Assembly: GCF_004765815.2 (NCBI RefSeq) | Contig: NZ_ML974127.1 | Location: 1,404,927 to 1,468,926 of the forward strand | Direction of reading: 5' to 3' | DNA from: Halorussus salinus | GTDB taxonomy: Archaea; Halobacteriota; Halobacteria; Halobacteriales; Haladaptataceae | DNA: 64,000 nucleotides | Part shown: positions 11,299-64,000 of the stretch, one piece after another | Layout: the number at the start of each line of letters is the position of its first letter | Position numbering within the stretch: the stretch's first letter is position 1 | Notes under the pieces: model-generated | The model's database searches: none | The model's input: only the letters and a program-made list of their open reading frames with translations | What the model was told of the DNA's origin: nothing | Position numbers and translations under genes: made by a program

Positions 11299-11726
11299 GT
11301 ATACGGATTCTCTTTCGTCGCGAGCCGTGTGATTCCGTCGACTGTGTCGAAATCCGCGTCGAAGCTGTAGACGTACTCGATTCCTAATCGGCGCATGTAC
11401 GCGACGGTCGTCGCGTCGCCGAACGAGAGGCCGTCGTAGCGCTCGAACAGTTCGATAGCCCGACGAAAGTCCTCGTCGGTTGCCTGAACCGTCTCGAATC
11501 CGGCAGATTCGTCCAACCGGCGATACGTATCGGAGGCGAGTCCGGTTCCGAGACGTTTGTCGAGAAGATTTAGAAGCTCTAGAACGACGTAGTTGGTCAC
11601 TCGTCCGGTCGGAAGTACTCCGTGGTCGATGCCGCGCACGATGTTTCTCGCTCGCTCGTGGCGTCGCTCGTCACGCTCGTCCCAGAAGTCCAACAGCACG
11701 ACGCTGTCCACGACTGCGGCTGGCAT
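11295..11726 (-). CDS. PIN-domain ribonuclease, VapC-like toxin
   Basis: 143 residues. Acidic residues expected of the PIN active site are present: Asp7 (VVDSVVLLD), a Glu in VVLELLN, and aspartates in SFGDATT and SFDADFD. PIN toxins cleave RNA, often tRNA, and are kept inactive by the cognate VapB. Its ATG overlaps the stop of the AbrB-like gene upstream (TGATG), the usual coupling of antitoxin-toxin pairs. Whether it is a toxin here is inferred. Confidence 0.88.
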   Translation of the reverse strand: MPAAVVDSVVLLDFWDERDERRHERARNIVRGIDHGVLPTGRVTNYVVLELLNLLDKRLGTGLASDTYRRLDESAGFETVQATDEDFRRAIELFERYDGLSFGDATTVAYMRRLGIEYVYSFDADFDTVDGITRLATKENPYT

Positions 11727-55581: not shown

Positions 55582-55947
55582 CTACGATTCGTCGTCCTCG
55601 CCCGGCCGCTCGGCCAGTCGGTCGAACCGCGACTGTGCCGAGTCGGTCCGGCGCTCGGTCTCCTCGGAGTCGTGTGTCATCGAGACCACGAACCCGTTCT
55701 TCACCGACAGTTCCAGCACGGCGTCCTGCCGCCGGGCGTCGGCGGGGAGTCGCCACGCCGGAATCGCGCGCTCGGCGACGACCGACTCGCCGGATTCGAG
55801 GAGCAAGACCGCTAGCTCGCGCCCGCCGTCTTCCGTGCGACCCTCGGCGTCGCGCTCCCCGCCGCTTCGCGCCGGGTCGGTCTCCTCGAAGCGGTCCACG
55901 ACGGCGACGTAGCGCCCGTCGGCCACCTCGGTTTTCTCACCCGTCAT
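55582..55947 (-). CDS. DUF3006-like protein
   Basis: 121 residues. The N-terminal YVAVVDRFEE, then LAVLLLESGE and the AIPAWRLPADARRQDAVLEL stretch fit the short DUF3006 fold. These proteins often accompany ComEC-like metallo-beta-lactamase proteins, as here: its start overlaps the end of the next upstream gene by 11 nt. Confidence 0.82.
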   Translation of the reverse strand: MTGEKTEVADGRYVAVVDRFEETDPARSGGERDAEGRTEDGGRELAVLLLESGESVVAERAIPAWRLPADARRQDAVLELSVKNGFVVSMTHDSEETERRTDSAQSRFDRLAERPGEDDES

Positions 55948-57409
55948 AGCTGACCTCCGCCACGAGCGACCCGTCGGCGTCGCGGACGAAAACGGTGTCG
56001 CCCGCGTTGTTCCAGACCGGCGCGTCGGCGTTCCAGTAGTAGTCGCCGCCGCCGTCGGTTCCGCGGCCGGTGTGGAGCGTCAGCGTCTCGCCGGGCGCGA
56101 GTTCGGTCCCCGCGGGGAAGGCGTACCGGTGGTCGGCCTCGTCGCTCACGACCCACCCCGAGAGGTCGATGGTCCGGTCGCCCGCGTTCCGGAAGACGAC
56201 GTACTCGTCGTTCAGGTTGGCCGCCTCGTCTCCTCGGGCGTCGGCGTGGACTCGGGCGACGGCGAGCGAGTTGGCGGTGTCGGAGTCGTCCGCGTCGGCG
56301 GTACTCGATTCGGGAGTCGTCCCGCCGTCCGCGGCCACTATCCCCGAACTCCCGCCGACTGCGAACGTCGCCCGCCGTTCCAGCGGCCCGTCCGCGCCGG
56401 GCGAGACGCCCGACGCGCTCCGGAGGTCCAGCGGGTCGGTCGGGGCCGCGCGCCGGGTCCGGACCACCGCGCGCTCGCCGTCGGTCTCGACGACCACGGT
56501 GCCGTGGACGCCGGTCCAGTAGGTCGGGACTCCTCGGTCGGCGAGGCGCGCTAGCACTTCGCGGTGCGGGTGGCCGTACGGCGAGTCGTAGGCGCTCTGG
56601 ATGACGGCGATTCGGGGGCCGACCGCCCCGAGGAGACCGGGGCCGGTGCTGGAGTTCGACCCGTGGTGGCCCGCGGCCAGCAGGGTCGCGTTCAGCGCGC
56701 CAGCGTAGCGGTCGGTCAGGTAGCGTTCCGCCGCTCGCTCGGCGTCGCCCGGCAGGAGGAGACTCGCGTTCCCGTAGCCGACCCGGAGGACGAGGCTGTT
56801 CTCGTTGCGCTCGCGGTCGGCGAGGTAGCCCTCCGGTGGCGACAGCACGCGGACCGACGCGCCCGCCATCGGAATCTCGTCGCCCGCCTGCGCCCGGTAG
56901 AGCGTGACGTTGTGCCGTTCCACCGCGTCGAGGTAGTCCTCGTAGGTCCGCGTGCCCGCCGCGATACCGGGGTCGTAGACGGCCCCGATGCCGTCGGCCT
57001 CGGTCTCGAAGTACTCGATGACCTCGGCGTGGCCGCCGATGTGGTCGGCGTCGGCGTGGGAGGTCACGAGGTAGTCGATGCGGGAGACGTTTCGAGCGCG
57101 CAGGTAGTCGAGGACGTGTTCGCCGTCGTCGTTCCAGTTGCCGGTGTCGTAGAGCAGGGTCTCGCCGTCGGGACCGACCACGAGGACGCTACCGCCCTGC
57201 CCGACGTGGAGGAAGTGTATCGAGAGCGTGCCGTCGCTGGCGTTCCCGCCGGGCGCGGGCGCGAGACCCGCGTCGGCGGTCGTTCGGTCGGTCGTCGCCG
57301 TGTCGGGCGACCCGCCGAGGCCGACCCCGCCGAGACACCCCGCGAGCGACGAGACGACGACCACCGCGACGACGACGCGCGCGAGTCGAGGAGCGCGGGG
57401 ACGGTTCAT
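55937..57409 (-). CDS. Secreted ComEC-like metallo-beta-lactamase with lamin-tail domain
   Basis: 490 residues. Lipoprotein signal at 1-25 (SSLAGC). A metallo-beta-lactamase domain (about 60-320) carries TSHADADHIGG at 117-127 (His118, Asp120, Asp122, His123) and AAGHHGSNSS. The C-terminal ~110 residues form a lamin-tail-like domain (LNDEYVVFRNAGDRTIDLSGW). The layout suggests an extracellular nuclease-like hydrolase rather than the ComEC channel, which is absent. Precedes the DUF3006-like gene. Confidence 0.87.
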   Translation of the reverse strand: MNRPRAPRLARVVVAVVVVSSLAGCLGGVGLGGSPDTATTDRTTADAGLAPAPGGNASDGTLSIHFLHVGQGGSVLVVGPDGETLLYDTGNWNDDGEHVLDYLRARNVSRIDYLVTSHADADHIGGHAEVIEYFETEADGIGAVYDPGIAAGTRTYEDYLDAVERHNVTLYRAQAGDEIPMAGASVRVLSPPEGYLADRERNENSLVLRVGYGNASLLLPGDAERAAERYLTDRYAGALNATLLAAGHHGSNSSTGPGLLGAVGPRIAVIQSAYDSPYGHPHREVLARLADRGVPTYWTGVHGTVVVETDGERAVVRTRRAAPTDPLDLRSASGVSPGADGPLERRATFAVGGSSGIVAADGGTTPESSTADADDSDTANSLAVARVHADARGDEAANLNDEYVVFRNAGDRTIDLSGWVVSDEADHRYAFPAGTELAPGETLTLHTGRGTDGGGDYYWNADAPVWNNAGDTVFVRDADGSLVAEVSYDG

Positions 57410-57847
57410 CGGGTCTCCTCAAGGCCCGGAGCGTCAACACTCTTTCCCACGTCCGAGACGATTCCGTCGGAACGTCGCCGAATCAGTTCGAGGAGTTCGG
57501 AACTGTAGTCTACAGATTCCTCGACTAAATACTTGTTAGCATACAGCACGAACCTACGTCAGAACGAGGTTAGATACGTTCGGCGAGAGGTAATTGTATC
57601 GGAAAAATAGTTAACAATGTACGCGGCATACGGGTCGTCGTGATATCTCGTCACGGAGTCCCACCGGAACGACCGAGGAGTCCGCGTCCGGAGACGAGCG
57701 TGAAGTTGCGGCACGCTCGGCGCTTCCGCGCGTCGTCCCGCGTTTTTCCTTACGTTCTATCCGACACAGTAGTGAATTCATCTCCAACTAAATGTTAAAG
57801 ACAGCTAGAAAAGATTTAACAACGTCTGTTGTGTATAATCTATCGCA
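57410..57847 (+). promoter_or_regulatory. Region upstream of the lanthipeptide precursor, with promoter
   Basis: 438 bp without a gene. TTTAAC at 57815-57820 is 28-33 nt before the precursor ATG, a good archaeal box A for a short leader. The preceding part has other AT-rich stretches (near 57600-57620 and 57770-57800). Nothing else recognisable. Confidence 0.5.
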
Positions 57848-57994
57848 ATGTCCGTGACACAGCATACCAGTGACGTGAAGGCAGAGATCGAAACCGAGTA
57901 CGCCCGCGACGGGTCCGACGCCCTCGACGATTCGTCGGAGCCGATGCGAGCCTGTAGCTGTTACACTCGCATCTGTTGCGACATCGACTCCTAA
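57848..57994 (+). CDS. Lanthipeptide precursor peptide (class II)
   Basis: 48 residues. The N-terminal ~33 residues form an acidic helical leader (MSVTQHTSDVKAEIETEYAR and on), ending SSEPMRA. The core is CSCYTRICCDIDS: Cys36, Cys38, Cys43, Cys44, with Ser37, Thr40 and Ser48 as possible dehydration sites. A LanM gene lies 2.8 kb away and an ABC transporter directly downstream. No Gly-Gly (or Gly-Ala) cleavage site precedes the core, so leader removal must differ from classic LanT peptidases. Too short for automatic gene calling in many pipelines. The assignment is inferred from the core and the neighbourhood. Confidence 0.82.
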   Translation: MSVTQHTSDVKAEIETEYARDGSDALDDSSEPMRACSCYTRICCDIDS

Positions 57995-58024
57995 ACGACC
58001 GCGACGACCGAGGTCGTTTTTTTT
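57993..58024 (+). terminator. Hairpin plus T-run after the precursor gene
   Basis: AAACGACC (57993-58000, starting within the stop codon) pairs exactly with GGTCGTTT (58012-58019); eight T follow at 58017-58024. An intrinsic-type terminator or attenuator that should give a short abundant precursor transcript while allowing some read-through into the ABC genes. Confidence 0.65.
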
Positions 58025-58116
58025 TCGGCCGTGCGTCTGTCCGCTACGCCCCTCGGCCACGGCGACGAGAGCTGACGACGATTCGGCGGTCTTCCGCCGG
58101 GAACTGACTCGATAGG

Positions 58117-59157
58117 ATGCGAGATACGACACCGGAACGAAGACAGAGACGCGACGACGAGGCCGAATCCGCGGAGAGCGACGCCGACCGAGTGCGACCG
58201 GGAGACCCGGCACTCGCCGTCGAGGGCCTCTCGAAGTCGTTCGGCTCCGGCGACGGCGCGGTCACGGCGGTAGACGACGTGTCCTTCTCGGTCGGTCGCG
58301 GGTCCATCGTCGGACTCCTCGGGCCGAACGGCGCGGGAAAGACGACCACCATCAAGTCGATACTCGGAATGGTCGTCCCCGACGCCGGGTCGGTCCGGAT
58401 AGAGGATGTGGACGTTCACGCCGACCCCCGCGCGGCCTACGAGCGCGCCGACGCGATGTTGGAGGGCGCGCGAAACGACTACTGGCGGCTGACCGTCCGC
58501 GAGAACTTGGAGTACTTCGCCAGCATCGGCGGCGAGGACCCCGCGGCGGTGCGAGACCGCCACGACGAGTTGCTCGACAGGCTCGACATCGCCGACAAGG
58601 CCGACGAACCGGTCCGGAACCTCTCGCGGGGGATGAAACAGAAGGTGTCGCTGGCCAGCGTCCTCGCCCGCGACGTGTCGGTCGTCTTCTTGGACGAACC
58701 GACGCTCGGACTCGACGTGGAGAGTTCCCTGCAACTGCGCGAGGAGCTAGGCCGACTCGTCCGCGAGCGCGACCTCACCGTCCTCCTCTCCAGTCACGAC
58801 ATGGACGTTATCGAGGCGGTCTGTGACCGCGTGTTGATTCTGAACGACGGTCGCATCGTGGCCGACGACTCGGTCGAGTCGCTCCTCTCGTCGGTCGAAC
58901 TGCAGGGCTTCCGCGTCGCGGTCGCCGACCTCTCGGACGCGACTCGGCGGTGGGTCCGCGACGAGTTCGAGGTCGAGGAGATGACGACTTCGGCCGACAG
59001 AACCCGGTTCACCGTCTCGACGGACCCGGCGGGGTTCTACCGACTCACGAACCGATTCGAGGCCGAGGAGGTCCGACTCGAAGACGTGCGCACGGTCGCG
59101 CCGGACCTCGAAGACGTGTTCATCGACGTGACGAACGACGGAGGCGGAGAACGATGA
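58117..59157 (+). CDS. ABC transporter ATPase
   Basis: 346 residues. Walker A GPNGAGKTT at 69-77, ABC signature LSRGMKQK at 169-176, Walker B VVFLDEPT at 189-196, and the H-loop in LLSSHDMDV. A ~35-residue acidic N-terminus precedes the domain, and ~100 residues follow it. No peptidase C39 domain is fused. It should power export of, or immunity to, the lanthipeptide together with the permease gene downstream, to which it is joined by two mini-cistrons. Confidence 0.93.
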   Translation: MRDTTPERRQRRDDEAESAESDADRVRPGDPALAVEGLSKSFGSGDGAVTAVDDVSFSVGRGSIVGLLGPNGAGKTTTIKSILGMVVPDAGSVRIEDVDVHADPRAAYERADAMLEGARNDYWRLTVRENLEYFASIGGEDPAAVRDRHDELLDRLDIADKADEPVRNLSRGMKQKVSLASVLARDVSVVFLDEPTLGLDVESSLQLREELGRLVRERDLTVLLSSHDMDVIEAVCDRVLILNDGRIVADDSVESLLSSVELQGFRVAVADLSDATRRWVRDEFEVEEMTTSADRTRFTVSTDPAGFYRLTNRFEAEEVRLEDVRTVAPDLEDVFIDVTNDGGGER

Positions 59158-59203
59158 CCAACGGGGGCGAACCATGACGAAGGAGAGAGGTGGAGAACGA
59201 TGA
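59154..59203 (+). other. Two overlapping mini-cistrons between ABC ATPase and permease
   Basis: The ATPase stop overlaps an ATG (59154) that encodes MTNGGEP and stops at 59177. That stop overlaps an ATG (59174) encoding MTKERGGER, which stops at 59203 in overlap with the permease start (59200). All three junctions are ATGA. GGAGAACGATGACC flanks the block at both ends, so it likely arose by a local tandem duplication. Confidence 0.6.
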
Positions 59204-60000
59204 CCGAGGAGACCAGCGCCGACCGGACCGGCGGGCATCGCCACCTCTGGCGCGCGGTACTCAAGCGGGAGGTCGTCCTGTTCGTCCGGTACCCGCTGAA
59301 CGCGCTCGGCGGGTTCGTGGTGTTCCTGTTCATGTTTCTGGTCATCTTCCTCGGCGGGCGGGCGTTCGCCGCCCCGGCGCTGTCCAGTTCCATCGAGGGC
59401 ATCGTCGTCGGCTTCTTCCTCTGGACGCTGGCGACGGCCTCCTACGTGGACATCTCCCAAGACATCGGCAAGGACGCCAAGTGGGGCACGCTCGAACGCC
59501 ACCTGATGACGCCGTTCGGGTTCGGCGTCGTGCTGGCGAGCAAGTCGGTCGCCAAACTCCTGCGCGAGGCGGTGATGGCCGTCGCGTTGCTCGTCGTCAT
59601 GCTCCTGTTGACCGGCGTCGAACTTCGACTCGACGTGCTGACGGTCGTCCCGATTCTCGTCGCGACGCTCGCGTCGGTGTTCGGCCTCGGGTTCGCGATG
59701 GGCGGACTGACGCTCCTGTACAAGCAAATCGGTAACTGGGCGGCGCTCCTCCAGTTCGGCTTCATCGCGCTGGTCGCCGCGCCCACGCTCGACCTCGGGT
59801 GGGCGAGGCTTCTCCCGCTCGCGCAGGGGAGCGCGCTCCTCCAGCGCGCGATGACCGACGGGACCCGCCTCTGGGAGTTCCCGGCGACGGACCTCGGTAT
59901 CCTGCTGGCCACGGGAATCGGGTATCTCCTCGCGGGCTACCTCGTCTTCCAGTTCGCACAGCGACGCGCCCGGCGGTTGGGCGTCCTCGGCCACTACTGA
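59200..60000 (+). CDS. ABC-2 type permease
   Basis: 266 residues with six hydrophobic segments; typical of the ABC-2 membrane proteins encoded downstream of ATPases. ATG at 59200 overlaps a mini-cistron stop. Pairs with the ATPase at 58117; probable roles are export of the modified peptide or self-protection. No further permease subunit is visible. Confidence 0.9.
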   Translation: MTEETSADRTGGHRHLWRAVLKREVVLFVRYPLNALGGFVVFLFMFLVIFLGGRAFAAPALSSSIEGIVVGFFLWTLATASYVDISQDIGKDAKWGTLERHLMTPFGFGVVLASKSVAKLLREAVMAVALLVVMLLLTGVELRLDVLTVVPILVATLASVFGLGFAMGGLTLLYKQIGNWAALLQFGFIALVAAPTLDLGWARLLPLAQGSALLQRAMTDGTRLWEFPATDLGILLATGIGYLLAGYLVFQFAQRRARRLGVLGHY

Positions 60001-60024
60001 CCACCGAACGACCACACCGAACTC

Positions 60025-60774
60025 ATGATTTCCGATGTCGCCGCCAAGTACGACGCCGTAGCGAGCGAGGGCCACGCCGACCGGATGGAAGCGTCCTACT
60101 GGCCGGTCGTCGAACAGGTCGTCGAGGAGATAGCCGTCGATGCCTCGACCACCGTCTTGGACCTCGGGACCGGCAACGGCTACGCCGCGAGATACTTCGC
60201 CTCGGAGGGGGCTACCGTCGTCGGCGTGGACGTGTCCGGCGAGATGGTTCGGGTCGCGCGCGAGGCGTCCGACGAGGAGGAAGCGCCCGGCGAGTCCGAA
60301 GCGGCCGACGAGTCGGCGACGACCGGCGAGACCGAGACGACCGACGACGGACTCCTCGACTTCGCCGTCGCGGACATGCACGACGTACCGATAGCCGACG
60401 ACAGCATCGACCTCGCGTTCTCGATGGACGTGCTTCCCTACTCGCGGGACCTCTCGACGCCGCTCGGCGAGGTCGCCCGCGTCCTCGCGCCCGACGGCGC
60501 GTTCCACTGCTGTGTCAACTACTACGCCGAGGCCGCCCGGTTCCAGCGCGAGGAGGCCCGCGGCGGTCTCGGGATGACGCTCCACTCGGCCGACGAGTAC
60601 GCCGACGCCTTCGCGGCGGCTGGCTTCCGAGGAGTCTCCCAAGACACCGTACCCAACACCGCGATAGAGATACCGCCCGAGGAGGCGTTCCCGACCGACG
60701 GCTGGGAGACCAGCGAGGACATGCGCCGGACGCTCCGGGAGTGGGGCACCCTGCTCACGGTCGGGGAGCTGTAG
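60025..60774 (+). CDS. Class I SAM-dependent methyltransferase
   Basis: 249 residues. SAM motif I VLDLGTGNGYAARYF at 44-58 with VVGVDVSGEM as motif II; ADMHDVPIADDSIDLAFS follows. An unusual ~30-residue acidic insertion (about 83-112, DEEEAPGESEAADES) lies after motif II. In this cluster it could methylate the lanthipeptide, but it could also be a general methyltransferase. It lies 24 nt after the permease and ends 19 nt before the convergent LanM gene. Confidence 0.88.
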   Translation: MISDVAAKYDAVASEGHADRMEASYWPVVEQVVEEIAVDASTTVLDLGTGNGYAARYFASEGATVVGVDVSGEMVRVAREASDEEEAPGESEAADESATTGETETTDDGLLDFAVADMHDVPIADDSIDLAFSMDVLPYSRDLSTPLGEVARVLAPDGAFHCCVNYYAEAARFQREEARGGLGMTLHSADEYADAFAAAGFRGVSQDTVPNTAIEIPPEEAFPTDGWETSEDMRRTLREWGTLLTVGEL

Positions 60775-60793
60775 GCCGACGAACGTCCCCGAA

Positions 60794-63700
60794 CTACTCC
60801 AGCAACAGCACGCAGGGGAGACTCGGGTCCACCAGTCGGAGCAGTTCGTAGCCGATTCCGGCCTCGCCGCCGAACAGCGACGGGTTGTGCCAGTGGTCGG
60901 TCTGCCAGCGCGCCCGGAACTGCCTCTCGCGGTCGGCGCGCGCGACGCTCGCGGCCGCCAGTCGGCGCGCGTCACGGCGATACTCGGCGTCGCCGAGGTC
61001 GGTCCCCGCCCGGTTCAGGAACGCCACGCGCCCGAAGTTGCCACAGCAGAGGTGGTCGTTGCCCTGCAACGTCTCGGCCTCGACGCCCGCCAGCGCGTCG
61101 CGGGCCTCGTCGCGGAGGTCGCGGCGCTCCTCGGCGTCGAGACTCCCGCCGCGACCGTCCGCGGCCATCCCGAGGCGAGCGAGACCGATGCCGCTCCGGC
61201 CGTTGCACCACGCGTCGCCGAACTCGCCGTCGAACGCCGGGCGGAGGTCCCGCCAGTTTCGCTCGTCGGGCGAGTAGTGGCGGCGCTCGAACGCCAGACT
61301 CTCGACGCCCGCCTCGGCGAACCGGTCGTCCGAGACCGCTCCGAGCCGGACCAGCGCGAGCGCGATACCCGAGACGCCGTGTGAGAGACCCGTCAGCGGT
61401 TGGCCGTCCACCGCGGAGTGCCACGCGGGAACGCCGTCGGCGTCCGCGCGCTCGGCCAGCAGGTGGTCGCCCGCGGTCGTCGCGCGCTCCACGACCTCCG
61501 CGCTCCCCGTCTCGTCGTGGAGCGCGAGGAGACCGAGAATCGCGCCCGCGCTCCCGCCGAGCAGGTCGTACGCCCCGTCCGAGCGAATCTTCTCGGGCGT
61601 GAGCGCGCTCGCGGCCGTCTCGGCGACCCGGACGTACTCGTCGGCGTCGAGGAGGTCCCCGAGTTTGGTGAACCCGTAGACGACCGAGCCGATTCCCGTG
61701 ACGCCCAGCGGGAGGTCGGCGACGCTCTCCGCGGAGACGGCGTCGGCCACCGGGTCGGCGACCTCCTCGGCGAACTCGGCGAATCGCGGTTCGTCGGCGG
61801 TGCGGGCCAGCGCGGCGGCGAACAGCGCGACGCCGAGTCGCCCCCGGTAGAGGTCGTCGGGGAGCGTATCGACCGAGACGCCCTCGGGTCGGTTCTCCCG
61901 GACGAGCCACGTCGGGTCGCCGTCTCGGCCCTCGACCGCGGCGTCCACGAGTCGGTCGTAGCAGTCTCTCGCCGCGCGCTCGAACGTCGCGTCGTCGGGG
62001 TCCAGTGCGGTCTCGTCCGGGGTCGGTTCCGTGGCACGCCCGCCGTGCGAGCGCGTCTCCGGGTCGAAGGCGTAGCGGACGTACTCGCGCTGTTCGGCCA
62101 AGTCCTCGTCGCCCAGTCCACGGATTCGTTCCCGCATCGACTCGTATGGCGTTCGGTCGAACAACTCCTCGACGCACCGCTCGCCGTCCCAGTAGAGGGC
62201 GGTGTCGTCGGTGGACGCCCCGAACCGCGGCACGTCGAGGCGGGCCAGCGCGTCGAGTTCGGCCCGGTAGAGCGGTTCGTAGTCGAATCCGGTGTCGGCG
62301 TCCGCGAACAGCGTCAGGAGGGCTTCGGACTTACAGCCGAACTGGAGTCCGGTCCGGAGGTACTCGGGCGTCCGGAGCGACTCCAACACCGCCGCGTACT
62401 TGGCCGTCTCGCGGTAGACGACCCGGACCTCGCAGTCCTCGAACGCCGAGAGCGGGCCGTCGTCGGCCAGCAGGTCGTCGCGCCGGGATTCGAGGAGCCG
62501 ATACCCCTCCTCGAACCCCGCCGCGATTCGGTCGGCGTGGTCGGCCGGGCGGGTCTCGTCGCCCCGGAGTTCGGGGAGGTTCGAGACGCTCCCCTCGGCG
62601 ACGCGCCGGTAGTCCATCTCCATCAGGTCGGTGTTCACCTCGCTGAACACCGGCTCCCGGACACCGCCGGTCTCGTCGTCCACGACCGCGAACGCGCCGG
62701 TGCCGACGTTCGTCGGGCCGCCGTCGCCCGTCGCGTCACTCTCGTCGCCGGTCGCGCCATCGTCGCCGCTCGTTCCGCCATCGCCGCCTGCCGAGCCGCC
62801 CCCGCTTGCTGCACCGTCCCCGCCTGCCTCACCGGCCCCGGCGGCGTCGGTGGTCGGTATCAGCCCCGTCCCGACGACCGACTCGTCGGCGACCCGCTTG
62901 ACGGCCCGGTCCATGTGGGGCGCTCGCTCGGGCGGTATCTCGGGTTCCGCCAGCGTCTCGGCGTCCACGACGACCGGCTGGTCGCCCGCCGCGACCACGT
63001 TGTCGGCGTGGCCGTCGCCGAACCGGAGCGCGTACAGCATCGCTATCAGCACGCCCGCCCGCCGGTAGAACCGCTCGACCTCCTCGGCGGTCGCACACTC
63101 GTCGGTTTCGGCCCACTCCAGCCAGCCGTACTCCTCGCGGGCGAGACAGTCGAGCGTCCGGAGTTCGGGGAGGCCCGACGAGTTCGCGCTCGACTGTTCT
63201 GTTCTCGACTGGTCGTTCACCCACGCGAGAAGGTCGTAGAACGCGCTCGTGACCCGCATCTCTCGGGGTTTGTACGCGAGCGTGACCCCGGAGGAGAACC
63301 CGACGCGGAGCGAGGCCCGGCCGCCCTCGTGGTAGTCGCCCACCACGTCGATTCGGGTCACGTCGCCCAACCCCTCGTCGCCGCCCAACCGCTCGTCGTC
63401 GCCCGAGCCTTCGCCGTCGTCCCCGAACCGCTCGGCGAGTTCGGGGGCGTCACGGGCGAGTCGTCCGCAGAACTCCTCGACGGTCGCGACCCACTGGTCG
63501 AGTATCGACGCCAGCAGTCGCGACAGAAACGCGTACTCCACGAAGAACTCCCGGAGGCCGTCGTCCAGCGCGCCCGCGACGAACGCCTCGTAGTAGTTGC
63601 GGGGGTCGTCCGGCTCCGGCGGGTCGTCGGCCAGCGCCAACTCCCGGTCGTGGTGGGCGACGAACGTCTTGAACTCCACGAACAGCGGATGGGCGACGAC

Positions 63701-64000
63701 GTGTTCGACTCGCTCGGCCAGCGCGACCTCGAAGTCCGCGAGCGCCGCGTCGGTCAGCGTCTCCTCGACAGCCTCGTCGTCCAACCGCGAGCGAGCGGCG
63801 GCGACGATTGCCCCGACGACCTCCTCGAACGGGAGTTCGCGCTCCGAGTCGGGACTCTCGACCGAGGAGGGCGCGACTTCCGCGACGAACGACGACACCT
63901 CCTCGACGGTCGCCACCCAGTCGGGAAGCGGTTCGTCGTCCGGCCACGCGTTCGACTGTAGGCGCTCGCGGCAGTCGTCTCGCGACAGTCCGAGCGCGTC
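60794..64000 (-). CDS. lanM: Class II lanthipeptide synthetase LanM (5' end outside window)
   Basis: At least 1068 residues; the frame stays open to the right edge, and upstream of the GTG at 63916 the residues DALGLSRDDCRERLQ and LPDWVAT still resemble the LanM N-terminus, so the start lies outside. Dehydratase part: kinase-like GDGHADNVVAAG near 62999-63016 and VVDAETL after it. Cyclase part: zinc ligands in WCNGRSGIGLARLG (Cys codon 61205-61207) and HLCCGNFG (Cys pair 61043-61048), that is the CCG motif of ProcM-like enzymes. A Gly/Ala/Ser/Asp-rich insertion of ~55 residues lies at 62690-62870. Converts Ser/Thr to dehydro residues and adds Cys thiols to form (methyl)lanthionine. Confidence 0.93.
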   Translation of the reverse strand, partial: DALGLSRDDCRERLQSNAWPDDEPLPDWVATVEEVSSFVAEVAPSSVESPDSERELPFEEVVGAIVAAARSRLDDEAVEETLTDAALADFEVALAERVEHVVAHPLFVEFKTFVAHHDRELALADDPPEPDDPRNYYEAFVAGALDDGLREFFVEYAFLSRLLASILDQWVATVEEFCGRLARDAPELAERFGDDGEGSGDDERLGGDEGLGDVTRIDVVGDYHEGGRASLRVGFSSGVTLAYKPREMRVTSAFYDLLAWVNDQSRTEQSSANSSGLPELRTLDCLAREEYGWLEWAETDECATAEEVERFYRRAGVLIAMLYALRFGDGHADNVVAAGDQPVVVDAETLAEPEIPPERAPHMDRAVKRVADESVVGTGLIPTTDAAGAGEAGGDGAASGGGSAGGDGGTSGDDGATGDESDATGDGGPTNVGTGAFAVVDDETGGVREPVFSEVNTDLMEMDYRRVAEGSVSNLPELRGDETRPADHADRIAAGFEEGYRLLESRRDDLLADDGPLSAFEDCEVRVVYRETAKYAAVLESLRTPEYLRTGLQFGCKSEALLTLFADADTGFDYEPLYRAELDALARLDVPRFGASTDDTALYWDGERCVEELFDRTPYESMRERIRGLGDEDLAEQREYVRYAFDPETRSHGGRATEPTPDETALDPDDATFERAARDCYDRLVDAAVEGRDGDPTWLVRENRPEGVSVDTLPDDLYRGRLGVALFAAALARTADEPRFAEFAEEVADPVADAVSAESVADLPLGVTGIGSVVYGFTKLGDLLDADEYVRVAETAASALTPEKIRSDGAYDLLGGSAGAILGLLALHDETGSAEVVERATTAGDHLLAERADADGVPAWHSAVDGQPLTGLSHGVSGIALALVRLGAVSDDRFAEAGVESLAFERRHYSPDERNWRDLRPAFDGEFGDAWCNGRSGIGLARLGMAADGRGGSLDAEERRDLRDEARDALAGVEAETLQGNDHLCCGNFGRVAFLNRAGTDLGDAEYRRDARRLAAASVARADRERQFRARWQTDHWHNPSLFGGEAGIGYELLRLVDPSLPCVLLLE

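Follow-up and report, generated by a model that had tools for sequence, protein, structure and literature searches.

A class II lanthipeptide gene cluster of Halorussus salinus, almost certainly the aln-gamma locus of archalan gamma

The window, as the whole analysed stretch of 64,000 nucleotides of Halorussus salinus DNA is called here, holds in its last part (57848-64000) five genes, recognised from open reading frames and domain searches as a precursor peptide, an ABC transporter ATPase, a permease, a SAM-dependent methyltransferase and a convergent LanM synthetase (Table 1). The preliminary description, made from the raw sequence, took this region for a haloarchaeal class II lanthipeptide cluster and proved accurate: the 48-residue precursor with its cysteine-rich core, the ATPase, the permease, the methyltransferase and the LanM all lie where it had put them.

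Table 1. Features of the lanthipeptide cluster, in window coordinates
Feature	Position	Strand	Remarks
Precursor AlnGammaA, 48 aa	57848..57994	+	MSVTQHTSDVKAEIETEYARDGSDALDDSSEPMRA-CSCYTRICCDIDS; core equal to the published archalan gamma core
Leader peptide, 35 aa, acidic	57848..57952	+	Cleavage site from PMC12144867
Core peptide CSCYTRICCDIDS, 13 aa, Cys-rich	57953..57991	+	Exact 13/13 match to the published core
Terminator-like hairpin followed by T-run, between precursor and transporter genes	58001..58027	+	-15.4 kcal/mol, z -2.3
ABC transporter ATPase, DrrA-like, 346 aa	58117..59157	+	PF00005 105 bits; TIGR01188 219 bits, below its cut-off of 312
ABC-2-type permease, 266 aa	59200..60000	+	PF01061 24.6 bits, just below the cut-off of 26.9
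Class-I SAM-dependent methyltransferase, 249 aa	60025..60774	+	PF08241 74 bits; candidate for Cys1 methylation
LanM synthetase, 1129 aa	60794..64000 (window-equivalent end 64183)	-	First 61 codons beyond the window

The precursor shows the organization of a class II lanthipeptide BGC, a leader followed by a core with Ser/Thr and Cys residues in the vicinity of a LanM gene. Its leader starts with MSVT, comparable to MSVA and MSIA in the other precursors of the same genome, and the hairpin behind the gene may keep the precursor transcript above the level of the downstream genes. Within 1.7 kb upstream of LanM no further precursor could be recognised, and no tRNA that could have served as an integration site was found near the cluster. 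The surroundings hold, on the minus strand of the window (55937-57409), a ComEC-like metallo-beta-lactamase domain fused with a lamin tail domain and adjoined by a DUF3006 gene, and, just past the window end (L007:9908-17998), a type IIG restriction-methyltransferase with candidate defence genes (PADLOC REase_MTase_IIG, PDC-S11 and a helicase piece).

In the genome, the LanM frame was followed past position 64000 to its start 183 nt beyond the window end, completing a protein of 1129 residues (full ORF at L007:4794-8183). The claim that this gene encodes a LanM, rather than a protein with merely LanC-like matches, is borne out by NCBIfam TIGR03897 (692 bits against a cut-off of 304, far beyond chance) and by the Pfam domains DUF4135 (307 bits) and LANC_like (PF05147, 165 bits), both over their cut-offs. 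Alignment to CylM (PDB 5dzt; reference residues D252, H254, K274, D347, H349, N352, D364, R506 and T512, with roles from PMC4550811 and LanM numbering verified by script) showed conservation of the residues for phosphorylation (K305, D390, H392, N395, D407) as well as for elimination (D283, H285, R587, T593). The DxHxxN motif and the zinc cysteines pointed out earlier are both present; the latter (C993, C1046, C1047) form a Cys-Cys-Cys site with a CCG motif in the C-terminal LanC-like cyclase domain. This motif occurs in nearly all haloarchaeal LanMs examined, and in LanMs of the ProcM/SyncM type it has been linked to low substrate specificity (reviewed in PMC12328550). LanM-like proteins serving another role than lanthipeptide synthesis, such as CA_C0082 of Clostridium acetobutylicum, are on record (PMC10301443), and the window protein could in principle be one of them. 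However, it retains all catalytic residues and is adjoined by a precursor, a transporter and a methyltransferase, while the product of this very core has already been made heterologously from the BGC (PMC12144867), which leaves such a role a negligible probability.

In regard to the product, Song et al. (2025, PMC12144867) described archalan gamma as encoded by the aln-gamma BGC in Halorussus salinus YJ-37-H. The core of this peptide, CSCYTRICCDIDS, carries thioethers between Ser2 and Cys3 and between Thr5 and Cys9, a Cys1-Cys8 disulfide and a methyl group on Cys1, as deduced by chemical derivatisation and subsequent mass spectrometry (PMC12144867). The compound was obtained by expression of the BGC in Haloferax volcanii and depends on it, and crude extracts of strains with aln-alpha to aln-gamma inhibited haloarchaea, an activity that belongs to the crude extract (PMC12144867). 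The 13-residue core singled out in the preliminary description equals the published one, and with these modifications (core minus two H2O, plus CH2, minus 2H) a monoisotopic mass of about 1456.5 is predicted. Furthermore, the cores of archalan alpha (GCGFTCSPFSSW), archalan beta (GLPSASMYSFEHCC) and sallan A2 (CTRYSF) are found in exact form in the same genome, and its six LanC-like places all lie in LanM-sized frames, corresponding to exactly six LanMs; six lanthipeptide BGCs have been reported for YJ-37-H. Because of the exact core match, and because the number of LanMs and the cores of the two other archalans and of sallan agree as well, the cluster is almost certainly aln-gamma of Halorussus salinus, from YJ-37-H or a near-identical genome, making the class II lanthipeptide archalan gamma. 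The strain itself would be YJ-37-H, judging from precursor identity and LanM count. As these are the grounds for the assignment, a closely related but different Halorussus strain with the same precursor could be imagined, the locus then being a further aln-gamma family member instead of the published one. This is very improbable, given that four independent cores match exactly, that the number of LanMs equals that of the reported BGCs, and that the archalan alpha- and beta-type precursors of other Halorussus species diverge in leader or core. The aln-gamma cluster and the structure of its product were already published in 2025 and are not new.

Two other LanM clusters in this genome, L009 (G000:C4:24500-44000) and L012 (G000:C1:479000-498000), contain none of the published precursor cores that were checked, and a simple precursor filter gave no candidate in either.

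With the structure given, the methyl group on Cys1 calls for an enzyme. As the Cys1 thiol is engaged in the disulfide, the methyl should sit on the terminal nitrogen, and we infer that the cluster methyltransferase N-methylates Cys1 inside the cell after leader removal. A cytoplasmic methyltransferase would reach this nitrogen only in the absence of the leader, so the leader would be removed before export, which fits a genome devoid of C39 peptidase and a cluster with a DrrAB-type exporter rather than LanT. Alternatively, a host enzyme could add the methyl, with the cluster methyltransferase doing something else, for instance acting on another of the six lanthipeptides. Relatives of this methyltransferase exist in nearly all Halorussus genomes (43-49% identical; the top match in the rest of the order has 44% identity), and the aln-beta product is N-methylated, yet its locus shows no methyltransferase family of any kind from about 6 kb upstream to about 13 kb downstream of the precursor. 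Against this stand the contiguity and common direction of the methyltransferase gene, which adjoins the transporter genes, with the precursor and transporter, and the fact that the product of this cluster carries the methyl on residue 1 (PMC12144867). A host enzyme is therefore considered unlikely, and methylation by the cluster enzyme is preferred.

The aln-beta locus deserves a closer look in this respect. According to Liang et al. (PMC10105419), archalan beta owes its N-methylation to a methyltransferase encoded within the aln-beta BGC. With Pfam, no methyltransferase was found among the genes around the precursor and LanM at this locus (L011, G000:C6:214000-233000); a genome-wide search with Methyltransf_11 gave a single match on the aln-beta contig, about 30 kb off, and a TYW1-like radical SAM protein is the sole SAM-type gene in the neighbourhood. 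As a weak lead, either this radical SAM gene was the one meant by Liang et al., or another methyltransferase acts in trans. Since the neighbourhood apparently lacks a methyltransferase, the window methyltransferase could even be a shared tailoring enzyme which also methylates archalan beta from its unlinked locus, a scenario to which we give a low probability.

The ATPase and permease form a DrrAB-like pair, which would export mature archalan gamma and probably also protect the producer. The ATPase is 57% identical to that of the sallan cluster, and the permease shows 40-44% identity to permeases close to LanM genes elsewhere; in plasmid records the ATPase was the only cluster gene matched, at about 76%. 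No LanT with a C39 peptidase domain, as typical of a bacterial class II BGC, was found in the cluster, as noted in the preliminary description, and for the Peptidase_C39 family (PF03412) the absence extends to the entire genome, whereas 8 of 14 control genomes were positive. LanT with a C39 peptidase is frequent in bacterial clusters and does not define class II lanthipeptides. The further notion that the missing LanT peptidase and the short core make the cluster unusual did not hold, both being ordinary among haloarchaeal clusters. In Halorussus, short cores and the presence of several LanMs in one genome are nothing out of the ordinary. For other archaeal lanthipeptides, too, proteases with genes outside the BGC have been invoked (PMC12144867).

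The following pathway is proposed, with the order of steps being our own suggestion and the product chemistry fixed by published work. LanM would phosphorylate Ser2 and Thr5 of the core and then eliminate the phosphate, after which its zinc cyclase would add Cys3 and Cys9 to the dehydrated Ser2 and Thr5. The 35-residue leader would be cut off by a host protease from outside the cluster, the freed amino group of Cys1 would be methylated by the cluster methyltransferase, and Cys1 and Cys8 would join in the disulfide. Export of archalan gamma would follow through the ABC pair, and antagonism against other haloarchaea is its likely use.

LanM genes were found in 11 of the 18 genomes of the genus and, at E <= 1e-60, in 38 of the 392 genomes of the order. 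Among these 392 genomes there is neither a close orthologue of the window LanM, the closest being 45% identical (alignment of 40), nor a convincing homologue of the precursor, in agreement with its published status as an orphan node. A weak precursor-like match in the genome G247 (E 0.008) was dismissed as chance, as no LanM is listed there and no convincing precursor ORF lies at the locus, and weak matches in the genome G008 lie next to a LanM that has precursors of archalan beta type. No match to the window LanM was obtained in viral contigs, and no confirmed relative in the genome contig collection, from which the source genome itself may be absent.

Different organization patterns were also seen at other lanthipeptide loci. 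In L053:7937-11157 (minus strand, G016) and L054:7493-10587 (minus strand, G003), both from Halorussus genomes, the DUF4135 dehydratase and the LanC cyclase of the class II synthetase are encoded by stand-alone genes, adjoining a DUF6895 gene in both cases. The two genes overlap by 4 nt in L053, where a candidate precursor lies at 11329-11469. Similar halves are present in G219, G340 and G184; such repeated occurrence points to a genuine gene arrangement and not to a frameshift. At L042:2028-2654 (minus strand, G008), two very Cys-rich candidate precursors with the endings CTGSCLCTNIACDGCSCGC and CSCICSFGCNGCSCCC adjoin an ABC pair 55% and 40% identical to the window pair, with a LanM nearby on the opposite strand.

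The window is thereby tied to archalan gamma, which belongs to the small group of archaeal natural products whose structure has been published. Compared on cores and LanM count, no difference was found between the window cluster and the aln-gamma BGC of YJ-37-H (PMC12144867), which has the identical 13-residue core and the same profile of six LanMs with archalan alpha, archalan beta and sallan precursors. In the BGCs for archalan alpha and beta, which this strain also has (Liang et al. 2023, PMC10105419), a class II LanM is likewise combined with a short MSVA-type precursor, but their LanMs are only 34-40% identical to the window LanM, and cores and rings differ. Among bacterial class II synthetases, CylM (PDB 5dzt) and LicM2 (6st5) share, by sequence, the two-domain make-up of this LanM. 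The kinase and lyase residues are identical in CylM, whereas its zinc site is Cys-Cys-His in place of the Cys-Cys-Cys of this LanM, which in that feature resembles the ProcM/SyncM type (PMC12328550).
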